Assembly (NCBI RefSeq): GCF_000763575.1
Contig: NZ_CP009170.1
Span: 149,501-213,500 of the forward strand
DNA: 64,000 bases
Direction of reading: 5' to 3'
From: Thermoanaerobacter kivui
GTDB taxonomy: Bacteria; Bacillota; Thermoanaerobacteria; Thermoanaerobacterales; Thermoanaerobacteraceae
The stretch's first letter is position 1; the number at the start of each line of letters is the position of its first letter. Shown piece after piece: positions 4,276 to 61,962 of this stretch. Below the pieces are notes generated by a model that saw nothing but the letters and a program-made list of their open reading frames with translations, was not told the origin of the DNA and ran no database searches. The position numbers and the translations under genes are program-made.

Positions 4276-5316
4276 ATGAAAATATACCTTTTATCTTTTG
4301 TTGTGGCATTTATAGTGTCACTTATTGCTACTCCCGTAGCGAAAAAATTGGCTTTTGCGATTGGGGCCATTGATATACCTAATGAAGAGAGGCGCATACA
4401 TACCAAACCTATTCCAAGATTAGGTGGATTAGCTATTTATTTTGGTACCATAACGAGTATATTGTTATTTTTACCCAAAACCCACGAAACCATTGGTATA
4501 GTCTTAGGAGCCACAATAATTGCAGTCTTGGGATTGTTTGATGATAAGTACAGTCTTAGTGCAAAAATTAAACTTTTAGGACAAGTTGTAGCAGCCGTAG
4601 TACTGATAATAAGTGGTGTGAGAATAGATTGGCTTTCTAATCCTTTTGGAGATGGAATGATATATCTGAAAAGCTGGGTAGCCATTCCTCTTACGCTTTT
4701 TTGGGTAGTAGGGATTACGAATACTATGAATCTCATCGATGGCCTTGACGGACTGGCAGCAGGAATAGCAGTCATATCATCGGGTTCTCTTTTTATAGTC
4801 TCTCTTTTAAATGGCAGATTTGCAACCGCTGTTATTTCAATCGCTATTGCTGGTGCTGCTTTAGGTTTTTTGCCTTACAATTTTAATCCTGCAAAAATTT
4901 TTATGGGAGATACAGGGTCTATGTTTTTAGGATTTGTGCTGGCAGCTATATCCATACAAGGAGCAGTAAAATCAGCAGCGGCAATCGCTATTGCAGTGCC
5001 AATTCTTGCCTTAGGAGTTCCGATATTTGACACAGCCTTTGCAATTATTAGAAGATTAATAAACGGCAAACCAATTATGGAGGCAGATAAAGGACATTTG
5101 CACCACAGGCTTTTAGAAAAAGGCCTTACACAAAAACAGGCTGTGCTTATAATGTACGGTGTTAGTGTATTACTGGGGATAAGCGCTATATTGATATCTT
5201 CCAGCAGTGAAATAAAAGGTTTGATTATCCTCTTTATTTCGATTTTGTTTGTAATGTGGGGTGCAGATAGGATCGGACTTTTGGAAAGGCAAAGGAAAGG
5301 TACACAGACTCGTTGA
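4276..5316 (+). CDS. tagO: Undecaprenyl-phosphate GlcNAc-1-phosphate transferase
   Basis: This 346-residue polytopic membrane enzyme belongs to the MraY/WecA family. It transfers GlcNAc-1-P from UDP-GlcNAc to undecaprenyl phosphate, the first membrane step of teichoic acid and other cell-wall glycopolymers. Conserved motifs are present: FDDKYSLSAKIKL (about residue 78), NLIDGLDGLAAG (about 153-164), FMGDTGSMFLGF (about 211-222) and the HLHHRL cytoplasmic loop (about 274-279). The ribosome site AAGGAGTG sits in a small hairpin (ACTCC-GAA-GGAGT, 4254-4266), which could moderate translation. It is followed by wecB, which supplies ManNAc units for the same polymers. Confidence 0.92.
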   Translation: MKIYLLSFVVAFIVSLIATPVAKKLAFAIGAIDIPNEERRIHTKPIPRLGGLAIYFGTITSILLFLPKTHETIGIVLGATIIAVLGLFDDKYSLSAKIKLLGQVVAAVVLIISGVRIDWLSNPFGDGMIYLKSWVAIPLTLFWVVGITNTMNLIDGLDGLAAGIAVISSGSLFIVSLLNGRFATAVISIAIAGAALGFLPYNFNPAKIFMGDTGSMFLGFVLAAISIQGAVKSAAAIAIAVPILALGVPIFDTAFAIIRRLINGKPIMEADKGHLHHRLLEKGLTQKQAVLIMYGVSVLLGISAILISSSSEIKGLIILFISILFVMWGADRIGLLERQRKGTQTR

Positions 5317-5348
5317 CGATTGTATTCTTTTAAGGAGTGAATTAAATT

Positions 5349-6503
5349 ATGGCACTAAAAATCATATCTGTTTTTGGTACAAGACCTGAAGCTATTAAAA
5401 TGGCACCTCTTATTAAAGCTTTGGAAAGAGAGAAGAATTTTCAATCAAAAGTTTGCGTTACAGCCCAGCACCGGGAGATGCTCGATCAGGTGCTGAGGCT
5501 TTTTAATATTACTCCGCATTATGATTTGAACATCATGAAAGAAAAACAGACATTATCTGAAATCACTACTTCTGCCCTTATAGGGCTTGAAAGAGTCTTT
5601 AATAGCGAAAAACCGGACCTTGTACTTGTACACGGAGATACTACAACAACTTTTGTTGCTGCATTAGCAGCTTTTTATCACAAAATTAAGGTGGGACATG
5701 TAGAAGCAGGGCTGAGGTCTTTTAACAAATGGTTTCCATATCCCGAAGAGATAAACAGAAAGCTTACAGGAGTTTTGACAGATTTACACTTTGCTCCTAC
5801 AACTACAGCAAAATCTAATCTTTTAAAAGAAGGTGTAAGTGAAGAAAATATTTTTGTTACAGGTAATACTGTTATAGATGCAATGGCATATACTGTAAGG
5901 AAAGATTATGTTTTTAGGGATGAACGGCTCAACCAAATTGATTACAATAATAAAAAAGTCATTGTTGTTACAGCCCATAGAAGAGAGAATTGGGGACAAC
6001 CCCTTGAAAATATATGTAATGCTCTTAAGAATATTGCCAAAAATTACAAGGATACCTATATAATATATCCAGTACACAAAAATCCTGTGGTGAGAGAGAC
6101 GGTATTTAGCATATTAAAAGGGCTTGACAATGTGCTTCTTCTGGACCCACTTGATACAGACGAAATGCACAATCTCATGGCAAAATGCTATATGGTAATG
6201 ACAGATTCAGGAGGTTTACAGGAAGAAGTACCTTCTCTTGGCAAACCTGTGCTTGTTTTGAGAGATGTTACCGAGAGACCGGAGGCTGTTGAAGCAGGTA
6301 CGGTAAAAGTCATTGGAACAGAACAGCAGGTTGTATACAATGAAGGAGCATTGCTTCTTGAAAATAAAGAAGAATATGATAAAATGGCTAATGCGGTAAA
6401 TCCATATGGTGATGGTAAAGCCTCTTTGAGAATAATTCAGGCGATAAAATATGCGTTTAACTTGACTGACAAAAAACCAGAAGAATATAAAGGCGGGGAA
6501 TAA
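5349..6503 (+). CDS. wecB: UDP-N-acetylglucosamine 2-epimerase (non-hydrolysing)
   Basis: The 384-residue cytoplasmic enzyme interconverts UDP-GlcNAc and UDP-ManNAc for teichoic-acid linkage units or capsule. Family motifs include GTRPEAIKMAP (residues 10-20), HGDTTTTFVAALAA (about 96-109), VEAGLRS (about 118-124), DSGGLQEE (about 287-294) and RDVTERPE (about 306-313). The catalytic acids and His of the WecB/MnaA family lie in these blocks. It follows tagO by 32 bases and ends the operon: the stop codon lies in the loop of the terminator hairpin at 6491-6513. In Bacillus the orthologue is mnaA. Confidence 0.95.
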   Translation: MALKIISVFGTRPEAIKMAPLIKALEREKNFQSKVCVTAQHREMLDQVLRLFNITPHYDLNIMKEKQTLSEITTSALIGLERVFNSEKPDLVLVHGDTTTTFVAALAAFYHKIKVGHVEAGLRSFNKWFPYPEEINRKLTGVLTDLHFAPTTTAKSNLLKEGVSEENIFVTGNTVIDAMAYTVRKDYVFRDERLNQIDYNNKKVIVVTAHRRENWGQPLENICNALKNIAKNYKDTYIIYPVHKNPVVRETVFSILKGLDNVLLLDPLDTDEMHNLMAKCYMVMTDSGGLQEEVPSLGKPVLVLRDVTERPEAVEAGTVKVIGTEQQVVYNEGALLLENKEEYDKMANAVNPYGDGKASLRIIQAIKYAFNLTDKKPEEYKGGE

Positions 6504-6513
6504 ACCCCGCTTT
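6491..6513 (+). terminator. Terminator of the tagO-wecB operon
   Basis: GCGGGG (6492-6497) pairs with CCCCGC (6504-6509), followed by TTTT. The wecB stop codon is in the loop. It lies between convergent genes and may work in both directions. Confidence 0.85.
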
Positions 6514-6525
6514 TATGAATTTATT

Positions 6526-6822
6526 TTATTTATTAGCTTCTGCTTTTGTTTGGCTTTTTGCGATTAAGTACCAGATGAAGCCGATTACTATTGCTCCGAT
6601 GAATCCGCCTATTACGTTGTAATCAGCGACCATCCAGCCCCATTTACCTAGGTAAGCGCCGCCAAGCCATGCTCCGATTAGATGTGCTACAAGTGCTGCC
6701 CAATATGTTCCGTAGATTTTATTTAGTTTTTCACCGTAAGATTGTCCGGCTTTGTAGTTAAACAAGGGATGAAATATAAGACTAGATATGATGCCGACCA
6801 CAAGAAGTGCTACCCAGAACAT
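6526..6822 (-). CDS. Small three-helix membrane protein, unknown function
   Basis: I do not recognise this 98-residue protein. It has an N-terminal hydrophobic helix (residues 2-18), a polar stretch with a KAGQSYGEKLNK segment, a second helix (about 41-60, rich in Ala and Gly) and a third (about 70-88), ending in a charged tail. Such Gly-rich layouts resemble transglycosylase-associated/YeaQ-type proteins, but the match is weak. It is real by its excellent ribosome site (TAAGGAGGTG) directly before the ATG and its lone convergent placement. Its promoter region has unusual phased repeats (see 6881-6968), so it may be under inducible control. Confidence 0.75.
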   Translation of the reverse strand: MFWVALLVVGIISSLIFHPLFNYKAGQSYGEKLNKIYGTYWAALVAHLIGAWLGGAYLGKWGWMVADYNVIGGFIGAIVIGFIWYLIAKSQTKAEANK

Positions 6823-6880
6823 GGTTTACACCTCCTTATTAAAATATTTTACCCTCTACCTATAATTTTAATTAATAAAA

Positions 6881-6968
6881 ATTATAAAACAAATTTAGAT
6901 TTTGACCTTTTTTGACCAAAAATCCTCAATAGGAAAATTTATCTATGTTTATCTGACCTTATCTGACC
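6881..6968 (-). promoter_or_regulatory. Promoter with four phased GGTCA direct repeats
   Basis: Read on the minus strand, TATAAT at 6886-6881 is a good -10, but no TTGACA-like -35 stands 17 bases upstream. Instead, GGTCA units (TGACC on plus) occur at 6903-6907, 6913-6917, 6954-6958 and 6964-6968. Spacings of 10, 41 and 10 bases put all four on the same helical face, and the nearest overlaps the -35 position. This is the layout expected for an activator of the OmpR/PhoB type binding tandem direct repeats. The regulator is unknown. Confidence 0.5.
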
Positions 6969-7088
6969 TTTTCTCTTTTTATCTAATTCTTTCTAATAGC
7001 TGTCCTTTTTTCCTATTATGCCAGTAATAAAAATTTTTAAAACCTATGAATAAAATTTTTTGTTGTGGTTAATAATTTAAAATAGAAG

Positions 7089-7157
7089 GGCGGTAGAAAT
7101 CGGCGAATTCATTCTCCCCCTTGTGGATTCGTCGATATTTTACCGCCTATTCTTTTT
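7089..7157 (+). ncRNA. Strong terminator-like hairpin with C-rich loop before ywmB
   Basis: GGCGGTAGAAATCGGCGAAT pairs with the block ending at 7147 (ATTCGTCGATATTTTACCGCC with small bulges), followed by a T-rich tail at 7148-7157. The loop contains TCTCCCCCTT, complementary to purine-rich ribosome sites. It ends 28 bases before the ywmB start with no gene on this strand in the preceding 580 bases. It is therefore either an attenuator in the ywmB leader or the 3' end of a small RNA. The rest of the intergenic region (6823-7088) is AT-rich and holds only the divergent promoter elements. Confidence 0.45.
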
Positions 7158-7185: not shown

Positions 7186-7938
7186 ATGTTTAAAAAAATA
7201 ATTACAGGAATAATAATTTTTGTGGGTTTGTTTTCTTTATTAAGTGTCCAGAGGCAAGCTTTTCTTTCTTTTAATGATGATGTAGAACTTGTAAAGAGAA
7301 GCTTTTTAAATACTGGTGCAAAATATCAATATGCGAATATAAACGCATGGGCAAAGATTAACAATGATTTTACATCTTTTGACAAGTTGAATGAATATAT
7401 CGAAGTCGCGATAAAAGCTATGAATATTGACAAAGATAAAGCAAAAATATCTCGCATTGAGGAAAACAATTTTAGACAAGTGGGAGTAGAATATGCGGAA
7501 AATACCAGACAGGTAAACATTGCAGTACAAACTTTAAAAAATGGCTCAAAAAGCGAAACATATATGTTGATAGACGAGTATCTTCTTAAGGGATATGACG
7601 ATGTTTTAAAAGAGAAAAGTCTTATAAATAATTCTTTTAAAATGTTAAAACTAAAAACTAAGATGGCAGTGTGTTTTGTAGGTATTTTTAATGGGAAGTT
7701 GAATAAAGAAAAAAATAGTAGTATAGTTAAATTAGTACTTAATGAACTTAATGCACAAAAAGTAGAAGGTATGGAAGATGAGAATGTAACAAGCGTTTCT
7801 GCCTATTCTGACAAAATCAAGGAATATATTAAGCTGGGGAGTGAAAAAATAAATTTAAACGTAGCAATAAGATACAGTTCTTTTGACGATAAAACTTATA
7901 TATGGGTTGCCACGCCTATTATAGCGATAGAATATTAA
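7186..7938 (+). CDS. ywmB: YwmB-like protein (DUF1779 family)
   Basis: This 250-residue protein has an N-terminal signal or anchor helix (residues 4-20) and a long soluble remainder, so it likely acts outside the membrane. I assign it to the YwmB family on length, general sequence character and position: ywmB directly precedes murA in Bacillus and many clostridia. No catalytic motif is visible and the function is not known. The gap to murA is only seven bases, so the two are co-transcribed. The ATG follows two GAGGT repeats, either of which could serve as ribosome site. Confidence 0.72.
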
Positions 7939-7945
7939 AAAGAGG

Positions 7946-9196
7946 GTGATAGCAACGAAATTCATTGTTGAAAAAAGTCCACCCCTTAAAGGAACTGTAA
8001 AGATAAGCGGTGCTAAAAATTCTGTCCTGCCTATAATCGCTGCATCTTTGTTGTCCTCAGGAGAAGTGGTGTTAGATGATATACCTAAATTAGAAGACGT
8101 CAATGTCATGATAGAACTAATTAAACATTTTGGTGCTATATGTGAATTTGAAAATGAGAGGTTAAAGATAAAGGTTGATATTAAAGACGTTGAAGCGCCA
8201 TACGATTTAGTAAAAAAAATGAGAGCATCTTTTTTGGTGATGGGACCCATACTTGCAAGGCTTGGTCATGCAAAAATTTCTATGCCGGGTGGCTGTGCCA
8301 TTGGCTCGAGGCCTATAGATTTGCACTTAAAAGGTTTCCAAACGTTGGGAGCAGATATCACTATAGGGCATGGTTATGTAGAAGCAAGAGCTAAAAAACT
8401 TACAGGTAAAAAGATTTATTTAGACTTTCCCAGTGTTGGCGCTACAGAAAATATCATGATGGCAGCAGTATTTGCCGAAGGTGTTACTACAATTGAAAAC
8501 GCTGCTGAAGAACCGGAAATTGTAGACCTTGCCAATTTCCTCAACAAAATGGGAGCAAATATTAAAGGCGCGGGGACAGACACCATAAGAATTGAAGGAG
8601 TAAAAAAGTTAAAAGGTGCTGAGCATACTGTGATACCTGATAGAATTGAAGCAGGGACTTTTATGGTGGCAGCTGCAATGACCGGCGGAAATGTCCTTAT
8701 AGAAAATGTTATAGTAGATCACGTGAGGTCTATAATAGCAAAACTTACAGAGTGTGGAATTAAAATAACGGAAGAGCCCAAGGGGCTGCGAGTTAAAGGA
8801 GTGAAAAATTATAAAGCAGTTGATATAAAAACCCTCCCTTATCCAGGTTTTCCTACAGATATGCAGGCGCAAATGATGGCAATGATGACAGTGGCAAAAG
8901 GAACAAGTGTTATAATAGAAACAGTTTTTGAAAACAGGTTTATGCACGTAGATGAGTTAAAACGGATGGGAGCGAATATAAAGATAGAAGGAAGAAGTGC
9001 TGTTGTCACTGGAGTAGATCATTTAACAGGGGCGGAAGTTAAAGCAACTGACTTAAGAGCAGGAGCAGCACTTGTATTAGCTGGACTTATTGCGGAAGGT
9101 AAAACTGAAATAAATGATATTTATCATATTGATAGAGGATATGTAAAAATGGAAGAAAAATTAAGAAATCTCGGTGCAATCATATATAGAAAATAA
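7946..9196 (+). CDS. murA: UDP-GlcNAc 1-carboxyvinyltransferase
   Basis: MurA adds enolpyruvyl from PEP to UDP-GlcNAc, the committed step of peptidoglycan synthesis in the cytoplasm. The catalytic Cys lies in [14 protein letters not shown] (about residues 113-126), and the [11 protein letters not shown] loop (about 304-314) is intact. Length (about 416 residues) is normal. The start is odd. The only in-frame GTG (7946) is inside the purine-rich site GAGGGTGAT; with that site at its usual spacing, translation would begin at an ACG (7955) or nearby. No ATG, GTG or TTG exists in frame at a normal distance before the conserved KFIVEKSP start. The reported start is therefore a compromise. Confidence 0.93.
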
Positions 9197-9221
9197 AGGC
9201 GTTATTTGGACGCCTTTATTT
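9193..9221 (+). terminator. Terminator after murA
   Basis: ATAAAGGCG (9193-9201) pairs perfectly with CGCCTTTAT (9211-9219) around a nine-base loop. The stop codon is in the 5' arm. The T tract is short, so it may be leaky. Confidence 0.65.
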
Positions 9222-9237
9222 CATGTAGAAAAAATTT

Positions 9238-9643
9238 TTAGTAGCGGGTATATTTATGGGTATAATGGCAGAAATGATGCATGTTCCTGTGCTTCCTGCT
9301 TCCTTTTGCATTAGGACTTTATCTGCCATTTGAACTCAGTGCTGCTATTGTCATCGGCGGTATAATAAGATGGTTTGTGGAGCAAAGGTACAAAAAGGAC
9401 GAGAAATTGTACAAAGAGAAGACAGAAAAAGGTATTCTTATTGTTTCTGGACTTGTCGCTGGAGATGCCTTAATAGGACTTGTCATTGCTACATTTGCTG
9501 GTTTAAAAATAAGTATAGACTTTGCTTCTAATTTGGCTACGAACACTGCATGGTTTGCACCTTGGCTTTCATTAGCAATGTTCTTGCTTGTAGGGTTGTT
9601 CCTCTATACTTATACATGTAAAGAGGACAAAGGTCAGGGATAA
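9238..9643 (+). pseudogene. C-terminal remnant of an OPT-family oligopeptide transporter
   Basis: Two frames joined give MGIMAEMMHVPVLP followed by FALGLYLPFELSAAIVIGG and a long hydrophobic C-terminus. This matches the last membrane helices of OPT-family oligopeptide/metal transporters, including the LGLYLP block. The frame breaks exactly at a tandem duplication of GCTTCCT (9291-9297 and 9298-9304); removing one copy restores the frame. The rest of the gene upstream, several hundred residues, is missing, and no start codon or ribosome site precedes the fragment. It directly abuts the murA terminator. Family assignment is by motif recognition. Confidence 0.7.
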
Positions 9644-9652
9644 AGTATAATG

Positions 9653-9673
9653 CTCCCACCCTTTGGGTGGGAG
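9653..9673 (+). terminator. Perfect stem-loop before the PqqD-like gene
   Basis: CTCCCACCC (9653-9661) and GGGTGGGAG (9665-9673) form a nine-pair stem with a three-base loop. The tail (TGTTGATTT) is only weakly T-rich, so termination may be partial. Confidence 0.6.
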
Positions 9674-9698
9674 TGTTGATTTAAAGGGTGATAAAAAT

Positions 9699-10040
9699 AT
9701 GGCAAAGAAACAAAAAAAGAGCGACAATTTTATGCTTTCTGTTCCGCATTATAGCAAAAAAATAGAATGGAAAAATAAAAACGGAAAAGTCATATTTGTA
9801 TTTTATCACAACAAGTTAGTTGAAAGGTTAGTGAGACTTTTTGTAAAAAAACCAGAGACAACTACTTTGGAATTATACGAAATAGGAAGTACTGTATGGA
9901 ATCTTATAGATGGGAAAAGAAATGTCTATGAAATGGGGCAAAAGTTAAAAGAGAGATTTCGAGATAGTGTTGAGCCTTTCTATGATAGATTGATAATTTT
10001 TATGAGGTATTTAAATAGAAGAGGATGGGGGAAATACTAA
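9699..10040 (+). CDS. PqqD-superfamily peptide-binding protein
   Basis: This 113-residue protein looks like a stand-alone PqqD (RiPP recognition element) fold. After a basic N-terminus come short strands (KVIFVFYHN, about residues 31-39), then helices with the ELYEIGSTVWNLIDGKRNV block (about 56-75) typical of the family. Such domains bind leader peptides for radical-SAM or other RiPP-modifying enzymes. No radical-SAM protein or precursor peptide is adjacent, so the role is open; free-standing clostridial members of unknown function are common. The start is ATG 9699, after AAAGGGTGAT at 9684-9693; an in-frame upstream start would run through the hairpin. Confidence 0.7.
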   Translation: MAKKQKKSDNFMLSVPHYSKKIEWKNKNGKVIFVFYHNKLVERLVRLFVKKPETTTLELYEIGSTVWNLIDGKRNVYEMGQKLKERFRDSVEPFYDRLIIFMRYLNRRGWGKY

Positions 10041-10107
10041 GTAAGTTAACATTATGTTTTTGATGTTTTAAAATTTTTTATAACTTCTATTTTTTGTGGA
10101 AGGATTT

Positions 10108-10136
10108 TTGACATTTTTGTAGAATTAATATATTGA
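10108..10136 (+). promoter_or_regulatory. Probable promoter of ald
   Basis: TTGACA (10108-10113) lies 17 bases before TATTGA (10131-10136), 40 bases upstream of the ald GTG. The -35 is perfect and the -10 imperfect. Confidence 0.5.
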
Positions 10137-10175
10137 AAAGGTTTTGATAAAAAATGAATAAAGGGGAGATATAGT

Positions 10176-11300
10176 GTGAAGATTGGCATCCCAAAAGAGA
10201 TAAAAACTGCAGAAGCTCGTGTGGCTATTACTCCTGCGGGAGTGGAAGTTTTTATAAAAAATGGACATGAAGTATATATTGAAAAAAGTGCAGGAATGGG
10301 AAGTGGCATAACTGATGAAGAATATGCAAAGGCTGGCGCTAAAATACTTTCTACTGCAAAAGAAGTATTTGATGTAGCAGATATGATAATGAAAGTAAAA
10401 GAACCGCAGCCAAGCGAATATGACTATTTCAAAGAAGAACAGGTTCTTTTTACTTATCTTCATTTAGCTCCTGATAAACAACAAACAGAAGCTCTATTGA
10501 GGAAAAAAGTGGTAGGAATTGCTTATGAGACAGTACAACTAGATAATGGAGCTCTTCCTCTTTTGACTCCCATGAGTGAAGTAGCTGGAAGGATGTCGGT
10601 GACAATAGGAGCTTATCTTCTCACCAACATAAATGAAGGAAGAGGAATTGTAATGGGGGGAGTCCCAGGAGTAGAGCCAGCAGAAGTGGTAATAATAGGT
10701 GGGGGAACAGTAGGTACAAATGCAGCCAAGGTAGCTGTGGGGATGGGAGCAAGAGTTACAATATTGGATGTAAATCCTGCAAGACTTGCATATCTTGATG
10801 ACATATTTGGAGGACGAGTTACAACTTTGATGTCAAATAGTTTTAATATTGCTCAGAGTGTGAAAAAAGCTGACTTGTTGATAGGAGCAGTTTTGATACC
10901 TGGAGCAAAAGCACCAAAGCTTGTGACAGAAGAAATGGTAAAGACGATGAAGAAAGGTGCAGTAATAGTGGATGTTGCAATAGACCAAGGTGGTTGTATA
11001 GAGACTTGTGATAGAACGACTTCTCACAAAGACCCGTACTTTATAAAACATGGAGTAGTACATTATTCTGTGCCTAACATTCCAGGAGCTGTTCCGAGAA
11101 CCTCTACTTTTGCTTTAACTAACGTAACATTGCCTTATGCTTTAGAAATAGCAAATAAAGGATATAAGAAGGCTCTACTTGAGAATAAAGCTTTATTAAA
11201 AGGATTAAATGTTTATAAAGGAATGGTAACATACAAACCTGTTGCAGATGCTCAAGGTTTAGAGTATGTCGATCCTGTTGAAGCTTTAGATAAAGAGTAA
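10176..11300 (+). CDS. ald: Alanine dehydrogenase
   Basis: This 374-residue NAD-dependent enzyme interconverts L-alanine with pyruvate and ammonia. It starts with the family signature [17 protein letters not shown]. It contains the catalytic His in TYLHLAPDK (about residues 93-101), the Rossmann glycine pattern [11 protein letters not shown] (about 173-183), and the [13 protein letters not shown] block (about 266-278). Start is GTG 10176 after AAGGGGAGA. It stands alone with its own promoter and a strong terminator. In spore-formers alanine metabolism is tied to sporulation and germination, and in saccharolytic thermophiles alanine is a common fermentation product, so either role is possible. 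Confidence 0.95.
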
Positions 11301-52560: not shown

Positions 52561-52700
52561 ACATATAAAGGGGAGAGCTTGCCACACATTGTGGTTTCAC
52601 CTGTCGTCGGCACGAGAAATTTTCTCCGGCAGGTTAGAAACTCCAGACGGAATTTTGAGCAAGACCTTTATAGTGTTTACCACTATAAAGGTCTTTTTTG
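52561..52700 (+). promoter_or_regulatory. Candidate riboswitch leader with terminator
   Basis: A structured leader precedes the sodium-pump beta-subunit remnant. Pairings I can draw: GCTT (52577-52580) with GAGC (52657-52660) as a closing stem; CCAC (52582-52585) with GTGG (52591-52594); GTTTC (52594-52598) with GAAAC (52637-52641), continuing as ACCTG (52599-52603) with CAGGT (52630-52634) and GAGAA with TTCTC at the tip. Directly after comes a perfect 15-pair terminator, AAGACCTTTATAGTG (52661-52675) and CACTATAAAGGTCTT (52681-52695), then TTTTTG. The architecture is that of a riboswitch; I cannot assign its class. Confidence 0.55.
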
Positions 52701-52733: not shown

Positions 52734-53220
52734 ATGAACGCTTTTATAGAAGGTATATTAAATCTTACATTAGGTCATATTATAATGTTTATCATTGGGG
52801 GGTGTTCTCATATATCTTGCGATAAAAAAAGAATACGAGCCAATGTTACTGTTACCTATAGGATTTGGCATAATACTTGCCAATATCCTGTTTTCAGCTG
52901 CTGTAGGTGAAAACGGCTTTCTCACAATTTTATATAATGCTGGAGTAAATACAGAATTTTTTCCTATCCTTATTTTTATTGCAGTTGGGGCAATGGTAGA
53001 CTTTTCACCACTTCTTAAGCAACCGTTAGTGATATTTTTTGGTGCAGCAGCACAGTTAGGGATATTTTTAACTATAATTTTTGCGTATATACTAGGTTTT
53101 AATTTAAAAGAAGCAGCTGCTATAGGCATAATTGGCGTTGCAGATGGTCCTACGTCTATTTATGTAGCTAAAGTGTATAGTTTGGACTCCAGGGAAGAGG
53201 TTTTTAGATACTCTCATTAG
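52734..53220 (+). pseudogene. Sodium-pump decarboxylase beta subunit (OadB-like), frameshifted and truncated
   Basis: The N-terminal frame reads MNAFIEGILNLTLGHIIMFIIGG. After a six-G run (52797-52802) the frame shifts by one; with five G it continues VLIYLAIKKEYEPMLLLPIGFGIILANI through a DFSPLLKQP segment and GIIGVADGPTSIYVA, matching OadB/GcdB subunits (the ADGPTSIY motif). After TSIYVAK the sequence diverges to an abnormal end, so the last helices are missing, perhaps by internal deletion. The frameshift sits in a homopolymer, so a sequencing error must be considered for that part. Confidence 0.82.
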
Positions 53221-53250: not shown

Positions 53251-53364
53251 ATGGACTTACTTAATGTATTTAAAATTGTTATTGTGGGAATAGGAATGAC
53301 TTTTTTGATGTTAGTCATATTTTTTTTGATGATCAAATTTTTAGTGAAAGTATTTAATAAATGA
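53251..53364 (+). CDS. Small OadG-like gamma subunit (37 aa)
   Basis: A clear ribosome site (AAAGAGGTGAA) precedes ATG 53251. The 37-residue product is almost one membrane helix: MDLLNVFKIVIVGIGMTFLM, then a hydrophobic stretch ending LVKVFNK. Sequence and position just behind the OadB remnant match OadG-type gamma subunits of sodium-pumping decarboxylases, which help assemble the complex. With the beta subunit broken and alpha absent, it is probably a vestige. Confidence 0.6.
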   Translation: MDLLNVFKIVIVGIGMTFLMLVIFFLMIKFLVKVFNK

Positions 53365-53940: not shown

Positions 53941-55110
53941 ATGAAGCGAAAGATTATTCATGTTGATATGGATGCCTTTTTTGCATCCGTAGAACAGCAT
54001 GATAATCCAGAGTATAAAGGAAAACCTGTCATTGTAGGCGGTTTGTCTGAAAGAGGAGTAGTTTCAACTTGCTCATATGAAGCAAGAAAATACGGGATAC
54101 ATTCTGCAATGCCGATGTACATGGCGAAAAAGCTGTGTCCACACGGTATTTTTCTTTCTGCAAGGAGAAAAAGATATGAAGAAGTGTCTGCTCAAATTTT
54201 CGATATTTTGTACAGTATAACTCCTTTAGTAGAACCTATGTCTATAGATGAAGCCTATCTTGATGTTACAGATATTGACAAAAATCCAGAGATTATTGCC
54301 CTGGAAATAAAAAAGAAAGTGAAAGAGACGACGGGGCTTACCATTTCTGCGGGAGTTTCCTATAACAAATTTCTTGCAAAACTTGCTTCTGATTGGAATA
54401 AGCCAGACGGATTTATGGTCATAACAGAAGAAATGATTCCCGACATTTTAAAACCACTTCCTGTTTCTAAAGTTCATGGCATAGGGCAAAAATCTGAAGA
54501 GAGACTTAAATCTATGGGAATAAATACAATAGATGACCTTTTAAAACTGTCACAGGAGAATCTTGTCGAAATTTTTGGTAAAGTAGGTGTGGAAATATAT
54601 TTAAGAATCAGGGGCATTGATGAGAGGCCTGTTGAAACTATGAGGGAGATTAAGTCTATAGGAAAGGAAAAGACACTGGAAAAGGATACAAAGGACAAAA
54701 AGCTTTTACTTCATTATTTGAAATTATTTTCCGACATAATATCGGAAGAATTAGTTAGAGAGAAACTTTATGCCAGAACGGTTACTGTTAAGATAAAGAC
54801 ACCAGATTTTGCAGTTCACACCAAAAGCAAGACATTAAATAAATATATACGATTAAGTGAGGACATATACGATGTAGCCTACGAAATTATTGAAAGACTA
54901 AAATTAGACCAGTATATAAGGCTTATTGGTCTATCTGTTTCTAACTTGAGTGCAGTAAAATATGAGCAATTGTCCTTTTTGGATAAAAGGGTTATTAAAT
55001 TTATTAAGGCAGAAAATGTAGTTAGAGAAATAAATAAAAAGATGGGGCAGGAAGTAGTGAAAAAAGCAAGTGAACTTTTAAATGAGGAAACGAAGCAACG
55101 GAGGGATTAA
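53941..55110 (+). CDS. dinB: DNA polymerase IV (Y family)
   Basis: This 389-residue translesion polymerase has the catalytic DMDAFFASVE (about residues 8-17) and SIDEAYLDVT (about 101-110) acidic motifs, the KPVIVGG (about 27-33) finger region, helix-hairpin-helix (VHGIGQKSEERLKSMGI, about 178-194) and the little-finger domain to about 340. It extends lesion-stalled ends without proofreading. A LexA box is not obvious upstream. I chose ATG 53941, as GAGGGATGA overlaps the earlier ATG 53935. It ends two bases before a MATE remnant. Confidence 0.94.
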   Translation: MKRKIIHVDMDAFFASVEQHDNPEYKGKPVIVGGLSERGVVSTCSYEARKYGIHSAMPMYMAKKLCPHGIFLSARRKRYEEVSAQIFDILYSITPLVEPMSIDEAYLDVTDIDKNPEIIALEIKKKVKETTGLTISAGVSYNKFLAKLASDWNKPDGFMVITEEMIPDILKPLPVSKVHGIGQKSEERLKSMGINTIDDLLKLSQENLVEIFGKVGVEIYLRIRGIDERPVETMREIKSIGKEKTLEKDTKDKKLLLHYLKLFSDIISEELVREKLYARTVTVKIKTPDFAVHTKSKTLNKYIRLSEDIYDVAYEIIERLKLDQYIRLIGLSVSNLSAVKYEQLSFLDKRVIKFIKAENVVREINKKMGQEVVKKASELLNEETKQRRD

Positions 55111-55111
55111 A

Positions 55112-55625
55112 TTGGAAGCAAAAGAGAGGCATAAGCGCAATGTTGCTAAAGAAATTATAGAATTGGCTTGGCCTTCTATAACAGAACAAATGCTTATAAT
55201 GGCAGTTGGAATGGTATCTACTATATTTGTAGGACGTGTTGGAACAAATGCGATTGCGGCTGTTGGGATGATTAATTCCCTTATTTTTTTCTTTCAAGCA
55301 ATTTTTTCAGGGCTTGCCACTGGTTCCACAGTAATTGTAGCGAGGCTTATTGGTGAAGAAGACAAAGAAGGGGCTCGCCTTGCAGTTATGCAGTCACTTA
55401 TTATGAGTATTGCTATTTTTATAGGACTCACTACTTTGGGCTATATTTTTGCAGTACCTATTGTTATTATGGCTCTTTAGAGTGACTATTGGATATATTC
55501 TTGGTAAAGTGTTTGGTATGGGAGTATATGGAATATGGATTGGTATATGTATCGACTTTGTTGTAAGGTCAGTAATGTATAGCTATAGGTTTAAAGCGGG
55601 TAGATGGAAATATATAAAAGTTTAG
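55112..55625 (+). pseudogene. MATE efflux protein with large internal deletion
   Basis: From TTG 55112 (after GGAGGG) the frame encodes the MATE N-terminus: EIIELAWPSITEQMLIMAVGMVSTIFVGRVG (in parts: AWPSITEQMLIMAVGM), GSTVIVARLIGEEDKEGA, to MAL then a stop at 55478-55480. In another frame the last helix follows at once: TIGYILGKVFGMGVYGIWIGICID ... YSYRFKAGRWKYIKV (parts quoted). About 300 residues between are missing, so the gene is a deleted remnant. The junction is near 55475-55485. Confidence 0.82.
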
Positions 55626-61870: not shown

Positions 61871-61962
61871 AAAAACTCACCTTTAAGATGAGCTTCCCAC
61901 CCAAGAAGCCAATAGTTCTTGAACAAGTTATAAAACTTGCCAACCGTCAAAAACTTTATTCA
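61871..61962 (-). promoter_or_regulatory. Probable DUF1646-motif (Na+-I) riboswitch
   Basis: The minus-strand leader folds into CAAG(TTTTATAA)CTTG (61939-61924), a stem GCTTC-TTGGGTGG-GAAGC (61909-61892) and a terminator CTCATCTT/AAGGTGAG with five T (61892-61871). The second stem's 3' base overlaps the terminator's first base, so they compete. It directly precedes a DUF1646 gene. Identity as the Na+-sensing class is inferred from the gene, since I cannot align the consensus. Confidence 0.6.

Follow-up and report, generated by a model that had tools for sequence, protein, structure and literature searches.

A putative decayed yybP-ykoY (Mn2+) riboswitch before a dying oadB gene in Thermoanaerobacter kivui and its intact counterparts before lone oadB genes

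The 64,000-nucleotide stretch of Thermoanaerobacter kivui DNA analysed here (the window) carries a leader at 52561–52700 that is very probably a decayed yybP-ykoY (Mn2+) riboswitch, which formerly controlled a lone oadB-oadG operon and should now stay terminated before a dead gene. In the window, switch and gene clearly decay side by side. Taken alone, this remnant is modest; its intact relatives tie the lone OadB-OadG family to manganese, and the intact pairs in other bacteria suggest that an OadB family filed under sodium pumps takes part in manganese handling.

Fold and Parts of the Leader

The original prediction described a multi-stem fold with a perfect 15-pair terminator in front of a frameshifted OadB-like gene, and all three elements were recovered. 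The fold at 52561–52700 reaches a minimum free energy of −45.8 kcal/mol (z −4.62), with 0 of 200 shuffled sequences folding as low, and homologous leaders are present in relatives. Most of this z is due to the terminator; without it, the segment 52561–52665 has a z of only −1.27, and 22 of 200 shuffles fold as low. Folding energy was therefore rejected as proof of a riboswitch leader, and proof that the leader is a structured RNA must rest on its homologues.

On the forward strand, the putative degenerate yybP-ykoY aptamer delimited by the covariance models R1 and R2 (see below) spans 52567–52669 and comprises P1.1, P1.2, P2, P3a/P3b with loop L3, and P4. From the sequence, the 5′ strand of the P1.1 switch helix (UAUAAAGG, 52564–52571) pairs with the 3′ strand (CCUUUAUA, 52665–52672). 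The bases of this 3′ strand are also part of the 5′ arm of the intrinsic terminator (52661–52695; 15 perfect pairs, a loop of five, then a T run), and P1.1 and the terminator are therefore mutually exclusive. Sequence and fold further define the P2 hairpin at 52582–52594 (CCACA / UGUGG) and, within 52599–52634, P3a (52599–52603 / 52630–52634), loop L3 and P3b (52614–52618 / 52622–52626). The P4 hairpin at 52638–52655, seen in the sequence and the aligned relatives, contains a C52641–A52652 mismatch. A simple scan, which says little, found no sigma-70-like promoter between 52480 and the leader.

The oadB Remnant and Its Surroundings

The remnant of oadB behind the leader (52734–53171, forward strand, starting at 52734) matches the profile PF03977 with 168.9 bits, above the cut-off, over positions 9–133 of 349. 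Its frameshift is caused by a single additional base in a run of G's near 52800. Compared with the relatives, the locus has also lost about 691 nt at 53170/53171, including 673 of the 1110 nt that oadB has in the relative L062 (about 60%). A sequencing error is an unlikely source of this deletion, though a possible one for the single-base lesions. Further downstream, a small oadG-like ORF (53251–53364, forward strand, 37 aa from the ATG) is still open. The PF04277 profile does not match this ORF itself, while two homologous small ORFs elsewhere (L170 and L112) score above its cut-off and a third (L123) just below.

A DNA search of 101 genomes with the leader gave matches over 143 or more of the 161 query bases in seven same-genus genomes, among them Thermoanaerobacter wiegelii (G009) and Caldanaerobacter subterraneus (G003). 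In G001 and G021, the match is limited to 30–40 leader bases, and G007 and the remaining genomes have none. Directly 3′ of the leader, all seven relatives possess an unbroken, full-length PF03977 gene. The intact same-genus copies, with three neighbourhoods inspected, consist of a lone oadB and a tiny oadG-like ORF, and neither a carboxyltransferase nor a biotin carrier is found near the intact same-genus oadB. Of the dying sodium-pump operon that had been proposed, the dying OadB gene thus stands, while the ordinary pump operon gives way to a lone oadB with an oadG-like ORF. Two sets of partial matches were set aside: the first 30 bases of the leader in seven genomes (L010, L019–L024), which look coding-like by eye and have no leader behind them, and the leader start in L011, also coding-like by eye.

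Two other loci of the window were recorded. The gene of a MATE-type transporter at 55082–55625 is cut to 132 aa (PF01554 positions 1–98 of 161), while T. wiegelii has a 466 aa MATE-type protein at the equivalent place, so that the window copy is a second decaying gene nearby. On the reverse strand, a Na+ riboswitch (RF03071, 59.8 bits, 61945–61891) precedes a DUF1646 gene (61816–60764; PF07854, 479.8 bits), a textbook pair.

Class of the Leader

An alignment of eight leaders contains, in this order, the motifs AAAGGGGAGUAGC, GUCGUCA, CACGAG, CUCCGG and GAGCAAGACCUUU, a series that we take to be that of yybP-ykoY. The covariance model R1 was built from nine RF00080-type Mn2+ riboswitches without OadB in their ~3-kb loci; R2 includes the same-genus leaders and is not independent for those. 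R1 matched all seven intact same-genus leaders with 36–46 bits (E 1.2e-9 to 6e-7) and nothing else across 155,507 bases at E ≤ 10. The window leader reached 19.9 bits with R1 (E 5.8e-5, 601 bases, filters off) and was not reported with default filters over the 155,507 bases. With R2, it reached 58.7 bits (E 4e-13, whole window), the other R2 matches in the window having 13.2 and 10.2 bits.

RF00080 itself lists no match on the window leader at E ≤ 10. Its gathering score (45 bits), a detection threshold and not a biological feature, is reached neither by the window nor by any of the loci of the seven relatives, whose best leader scored 19.2 bits (E 0.003); in 61 related genomes no copy reaches it either, not even a GDT1-linked one. 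An all-Rfam scan of the window leader returned 18 rows, all below the gathering score; the top one, SR1 (E 0.019), spans the end of the preceding gene and the terminator of that gene.

Both parts of the metal site, GGGAGUA in L1 and C40-A41 in L3, are present in all seven intact same-genus leaders, and all 35 aligned Mn2+ riboswitches share the L1 motif and A41. Among 22 OadB-linked aptamers, seven of them same-genus, 94.4% of the pair cells hold standard pairs and 20 of the 22 class-stem pairs show double changes. The covariation score of these aptamers is 0.793, compared with 0.274 when shuffled and at most 0.166 when slid, in an alignment that was fitted to R1; five of the 27 OadB-linked sources lack an R1 match and are supported by R2 or gene context. 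By sequence, structure and covariation, the intact same-genus leaders belong to the yybP-ykoY (Mn2+) class. The window leader is very probably a degenerate member overlooked by RF00080, and a decayed descendant of the class rather than a working member. The original prediction considered the class unassignable, but R1 and R2 place the leader in this one.

Association of the Riboswitch with OadB beyond the Genus

With the T. wiegelii OadB protein as query, the genome contigs yielded 145 OadB stretches, and the analysis covered the best 80. R1 matched 19 of these best 80 loci, each time on the gene strand and directly upstream, and nothing elsewhere in their 859,636 bases at E ≤ 5. The less independent R2 added four loci (37.7–65.8 bits), bringing the total to 23 of the best 80, four of which (L092–L095) are same-genus genomes again. 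The distance from aptamer to oadB is 54–197 nt in 22 of the 23 loci and 545 nt in one. Switch-linked OadB occurs in Thermoanaerobacteraceae, Mahellaceae, Thermotaleaceae, Clostridiaceae, Fermentithermobacillaceae, Oscillospiraceae and unnamed Bacillota. Homologous leaders upstream of decarboxylase-type genes, whose absence would have spoken against the original prediction, are hence found in seven same-genus genomes and in 23 of the 80 wider relatives. One R1 match in L031 (18.9 bits, E 0.022) lies inside another gene on the other strand and was rejected.

Neither R1 nor R2 detected a Mn2+ riboswitch in the 30 best-scoring loci among the matches of the first OadB family search. In a quick tree of 110 OadB proteins, the best 80 loci form one group (branch 0.85, SH-aLRT 100) together with L045, which is one of the 30 first-search loci yet groups with the 80. 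Placing the switch on this tree needs six changes, compared with 21.0 for shuffled labels, which points to several gains or losses of the switch. The lone oadB of L112 carries an in-frame stop. In L102, short ORFs with a repeated peptide lie behind oadB (about 7300–10600), by eye a translated repeat array, perhaps CRISPR. In the portions of the literature that were searched, no statement linking OadB to Mn2+ riboswitches was found, and an earlier gene listing in a 2015 Mol Cell paper is possible.

Many Mn2+ riboswitches of Bacillota escape the current Rfam model. R2 matched at E ≤ 0.001 in 159 of 299 genomes sampled from the phylum; this count and the 0 of 61 for RF00080 come from different genome sets and thresholds. 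The downstream genes were surveyed for 130 among the R2 matches listed, 30 with a locus and 100 without, with high scores favoured and the window leader left out, and an ORF was obtained behind 128 of them. Named through Pfam matches of representatives, the ORF clusters hold 46 P-type ATPases, 24 TerC, 22 GDT1 and 14 Na_Ca_ex proteins; rarer are OadB (3, one same-genus), MntP (1) and CitMHS (1), and 17 further ORFs fall into small groups or singles, partly wrong picks. Mn2+ riboswitches are a good marker of cation exporters in this sample, in which P-type ATPases, TerC, GDT1 and Na_Ca_ex-type exchangers predominate, and OadB is a rare but recurrent target among them. For the UPF0016 (GDT1) gene, a review gives a yybP-ykoY riboswitch in 328 of 333 screened strains carrying the gene (PMC7380456). 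The CitMHS-family transporter behind a Mn2+ riboswitch in L287 (G136:C54) lies outside the usual manganese exporters.

Possible Function of the Lone OadB

Since 23 of the 80 loci are switch-linked, no decarboxylase genes flank them and a second OadB is encoded elsewhere, the lone OadB(G) is probably a Mn2+-induced transporter, perhaps a Mn2+ exporter. More generally, the protein may move Mn2+ or help the cell in coping with it. An export role is put forward tentatively, as one that could well prove wrong. The same caution applies to the wider proposal that lone OadB-OadG might form a new family of Mn2+ or divalent-metal exporters, which would be elevator-type, Na+-coupled, derived from the pump without its enzyme, and repeatedly riboswitch-controlled.

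Alternatively, lone OadBG could be an additional beta-gamma membrane part for a biotin-dependent decarboxylase sodium pump that has its alpha subunit gene at another place in the genome, in which case Mn2+ would control OadBG for another reason, such as a metal-requiring carboxyltransferase. This reading, which concerns the job of the gene and not the class of the RNA, is unlikely in our judgement. A homology search of the flanks, which extend at least 3 kb on both sides in 18 of the 23 switch-linked loci, found a PycB or MmdA homologue in none of the 23, whereas in 28 of 30 classical OadB loci a homologue of PycB, MmdA or the biotin carrier lies no more than 1.5 kb away. Such a module does adjoin oadB in five of the 57 switch-less clade loci (L153, L160, L162, L165 and L167), with PycB in L160 and three Clostridium loci, MmdA in L162, and a biotin carrier, as expected for a pump part; it lies about 2.9 kb and 4.2 kb off in the switch-less loci L117 and L111. 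Set against each other, 0 of 23 and 5 of 57 differ too little to carry an argument. The biotin-carrier matches in L092–L095 (35–39 bits), weak and more than 3.9 kb from oadB, were left uncounted, the one in L092 being a HlyD-like gene; a carboxyltransferase-motif match near L126 turned out to be a HMGL/homocitrate-synthase-like protein.

The second OadB also speaks against an extra pump part. Each of the 19 switch-linked genomes from outside the genus has one, a partial or fragmented one in the case of G374 and G379, and in 14 of the 19 it lies within 5 kb of MmdA; in L309 and L313, the gene order is MmdA, OadG-like ORF, biotin carrier, OadB and PycB. Within the genus, an MmdA-biotin carrier cluster of T. 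wiegelii (L307) has no OadB of its own, and PF02436 and PF01039 are found in 27 and 28, respectively, of the 29 genome entries searched (27 distinct genomes), which likewise favours the pump. The protein itself points in both directions. Residues of the Na+ site and other essential residues, with roles known from Salmonella (PMC7274780), are retained in the switch-linked proteins (D203, S382, N412, E40 and R304 in 23 of 23; N311 in 22 of 23), as a pump part would require, but the lone clade differs from classical OadB by the fixed changes T148I, P411A and V416Q adjoining the Na+ site. Moreover, Mn2+ riboswitches otherwise stand before cation exporters, which speaks against a pump part.

In the switch-less locus L162 (Chitinophagaceae, 4329–7113), a TerC gene (PF03741, 135.4 bits) separates the biotin carrier from the lone-clade OadB, the single further link to a manganese-related family. 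The recurrent link with the riboswitch makes genes annotated as sodium-pump parts in many anaerobes testable candidates for manganese transporters, and raises the question of what function the membrane portion of such a pump can have once the enzyme is absent.

Proposed Ligand and Switching of the Intact Leaders

By analogy with the known members, the intact OadB-linked leaders are expected to bind Mn2+ and to act as Mn2+ ON switches. In these copies, Mn2+ held between L1 and L3 would stabilise P1.1, the formed P1.1 would block the terminator, and oadBG would be transcribed. The ON direction is proposed because the sharing of bases between P1.1 and the terminator matches the logic of the Lactococcus lactis riboswitch, in which Mn2+ binding stabilises P1.1 and disrupts the terminator, as described in two reports (PMC9190785, PMC11087558). 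One review calls Mn2+ riboswitches OFF switches (PMC11477304).

A variant of the yybP-ykoY class for another divalent metal, such as Co2+, Ni2+ or Fe2+, seems improbable for the OadB-linked leaders. Sherlock and Breaker observe that Mn2+ does not suit every gene behind a yybP RNA and expect yybP variants for these exceptions (PMC7266159), and many OadB-linked leaders outside Thermoanaerobacter have GUAA in place of GUAG. This change is compensated by the P1.2 pair (12 AU, 10 GC) and is therefore structural, and the L1 motif and C40-A41 do not differ from those of the other Mn2+ riboswitches (35 of 35), in favour of Mn2+ as the ligand.

Lesions and Decay of the Window Copy

Two invariant positions of the metal site are lost from the window copy. 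The U of GGGAGUA in loop L1, present in all seven same-genus relatives, is missing between 52575 and 52576, and a G at 52609 replaces the invariant Mn2+-coordinating adenosine of L3, which is an A in the seven relatives and in 35 of 35 aligned riboswitches. Based on the alignment and the L. lactis sequence, 52609 presumably equals A41 of L. lactis. According to the available parts of the reports on this RNA, N7 of A41 coordinates Mn2+ and an A41-to-U change abolishes binding, G not being among the changes they report (PMC9190785, PMC11087558). Besides the P4 mismatch, the outer P3a pair conserved in the relatives has become a C52598–U52635 mismatch.

From these lesions, the window riboswitch has likely lost its function: with the metal site lacking two invariant nucleotides, the RNA would stay terminated before the dead gene. 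A leader that still works, be it as the riboswitch of oadG or as an RNA of its own, is very improbable. P1.1, the terminator and most stems are intact and the oadG-like ORF is open, as a working leader would need, but both metal-site positions are gone, P3a and P4 each contain a mismatch, and the R1 score is 19.9 bits against 36–46 bits for the intact relatives. The idea that the leader is better preserved than the gene does not hold either, since the identity to the seven relatives is 84.5–92.2% for the aptamer and 85.8–91.3% for the surviving oadB fragment, and two invariants are lost. Instead of a recently orphaned regulator or stand-alone RNA, of whose preservation there is no sign, we see a leader that decays with its gene.

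While the oadB operon and its switch die, a P-type ATPase gene and a GDT1 gene of the same genome keep their Mn2+ riboswitches. Its four R2 matches are the window leader, one of the P-type ATPase cluster (L208), one of the GDT1 cluster (L055/L173) and L220. As other Mn2+ riboswitch-linked genes are kept, the loss of lone oadBG may be tolerable. The match in L220 (1–570, from G000:C1:953340 on; 58 bits) has no convincing gene directly behind it, with the next long ORF starting about 570 nt on, and is possibly orphaned.

The ligand first suggested, Na+ or a carboxylic acid, would call for a new riboswitch class, which we consider most improbable: the gene family owes its name to the oxaloacetate decarboxylase Na+ pump and, according to PMC9337991 and the example of L302, Na+ riboswitches precede some such genes, but R1 and R2 assign the leader to the Mn2+ class, for which these ligands are not expected, and the sole RF03071 match in the window is the one at 61945–61891, with none at the leader. 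An all-Rfam scan covering 13 of the 57 switch-less loci found no Na+ riboswitch before the lone oadB. For the other 44 loci, L135 excepted, RF03071 was run over 42 genomes and matched at 11 places in seven genomes; of the four places inspected, one (L302) has an OadB alongside. There, the Na+ riboswitch (49.7 bits) adjoins an OadB that shares only 49.6% identity with the lone one; L171 lies in the same genome.

Comparison with Known Systems

The lone proteins are homologous to the beta and gamma subunits of the oxaloacetate/methylmalonyl-CoA decarboxylase Na+ pump (OadB, PF03977; OadG, PF04277). Against the Na+ pump structure PDB 6iva (also 6iww), lone OadB gives an E of 9.1e-104, with the Na+-site residues conserved. 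Unlike the decarboxylase pump, the switch-linked genes have no adjacent alpha subunit or biotin carrier and fall into a separate clade. The Na+ riboswitch RF03071 (DUF1646 motif) likewise precedes some OadB genes, as PMC9337991 and L302 indicate, and its aptamer is unrelated to that of the window leader.

The leaders resemble the yoaB-type RF00080 riboswitch of L. lactis in L1 GGGAGUA, L3 C40-A41, the four helices and the competition between P1.1 and the terminator. They differ from RF00080 systems in scoring below the Rfam gathering threshold and in having a lone OadB behind them instead of a P-type ATPase, TerC, GDT1 or MntP. A further difference of the window copy is the loss of two invariant positions. 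The closest comparison comes from the same genome, in which the GDT1 (UPF0016) riboswitch (L055/L173) has the same aptamer layout and a terminator sharing P1.1 bases, and here the metal site is intact (GUCAACAU loop), with an R2 score of 76.7 bits compared with 58.7 bits for the window leader.
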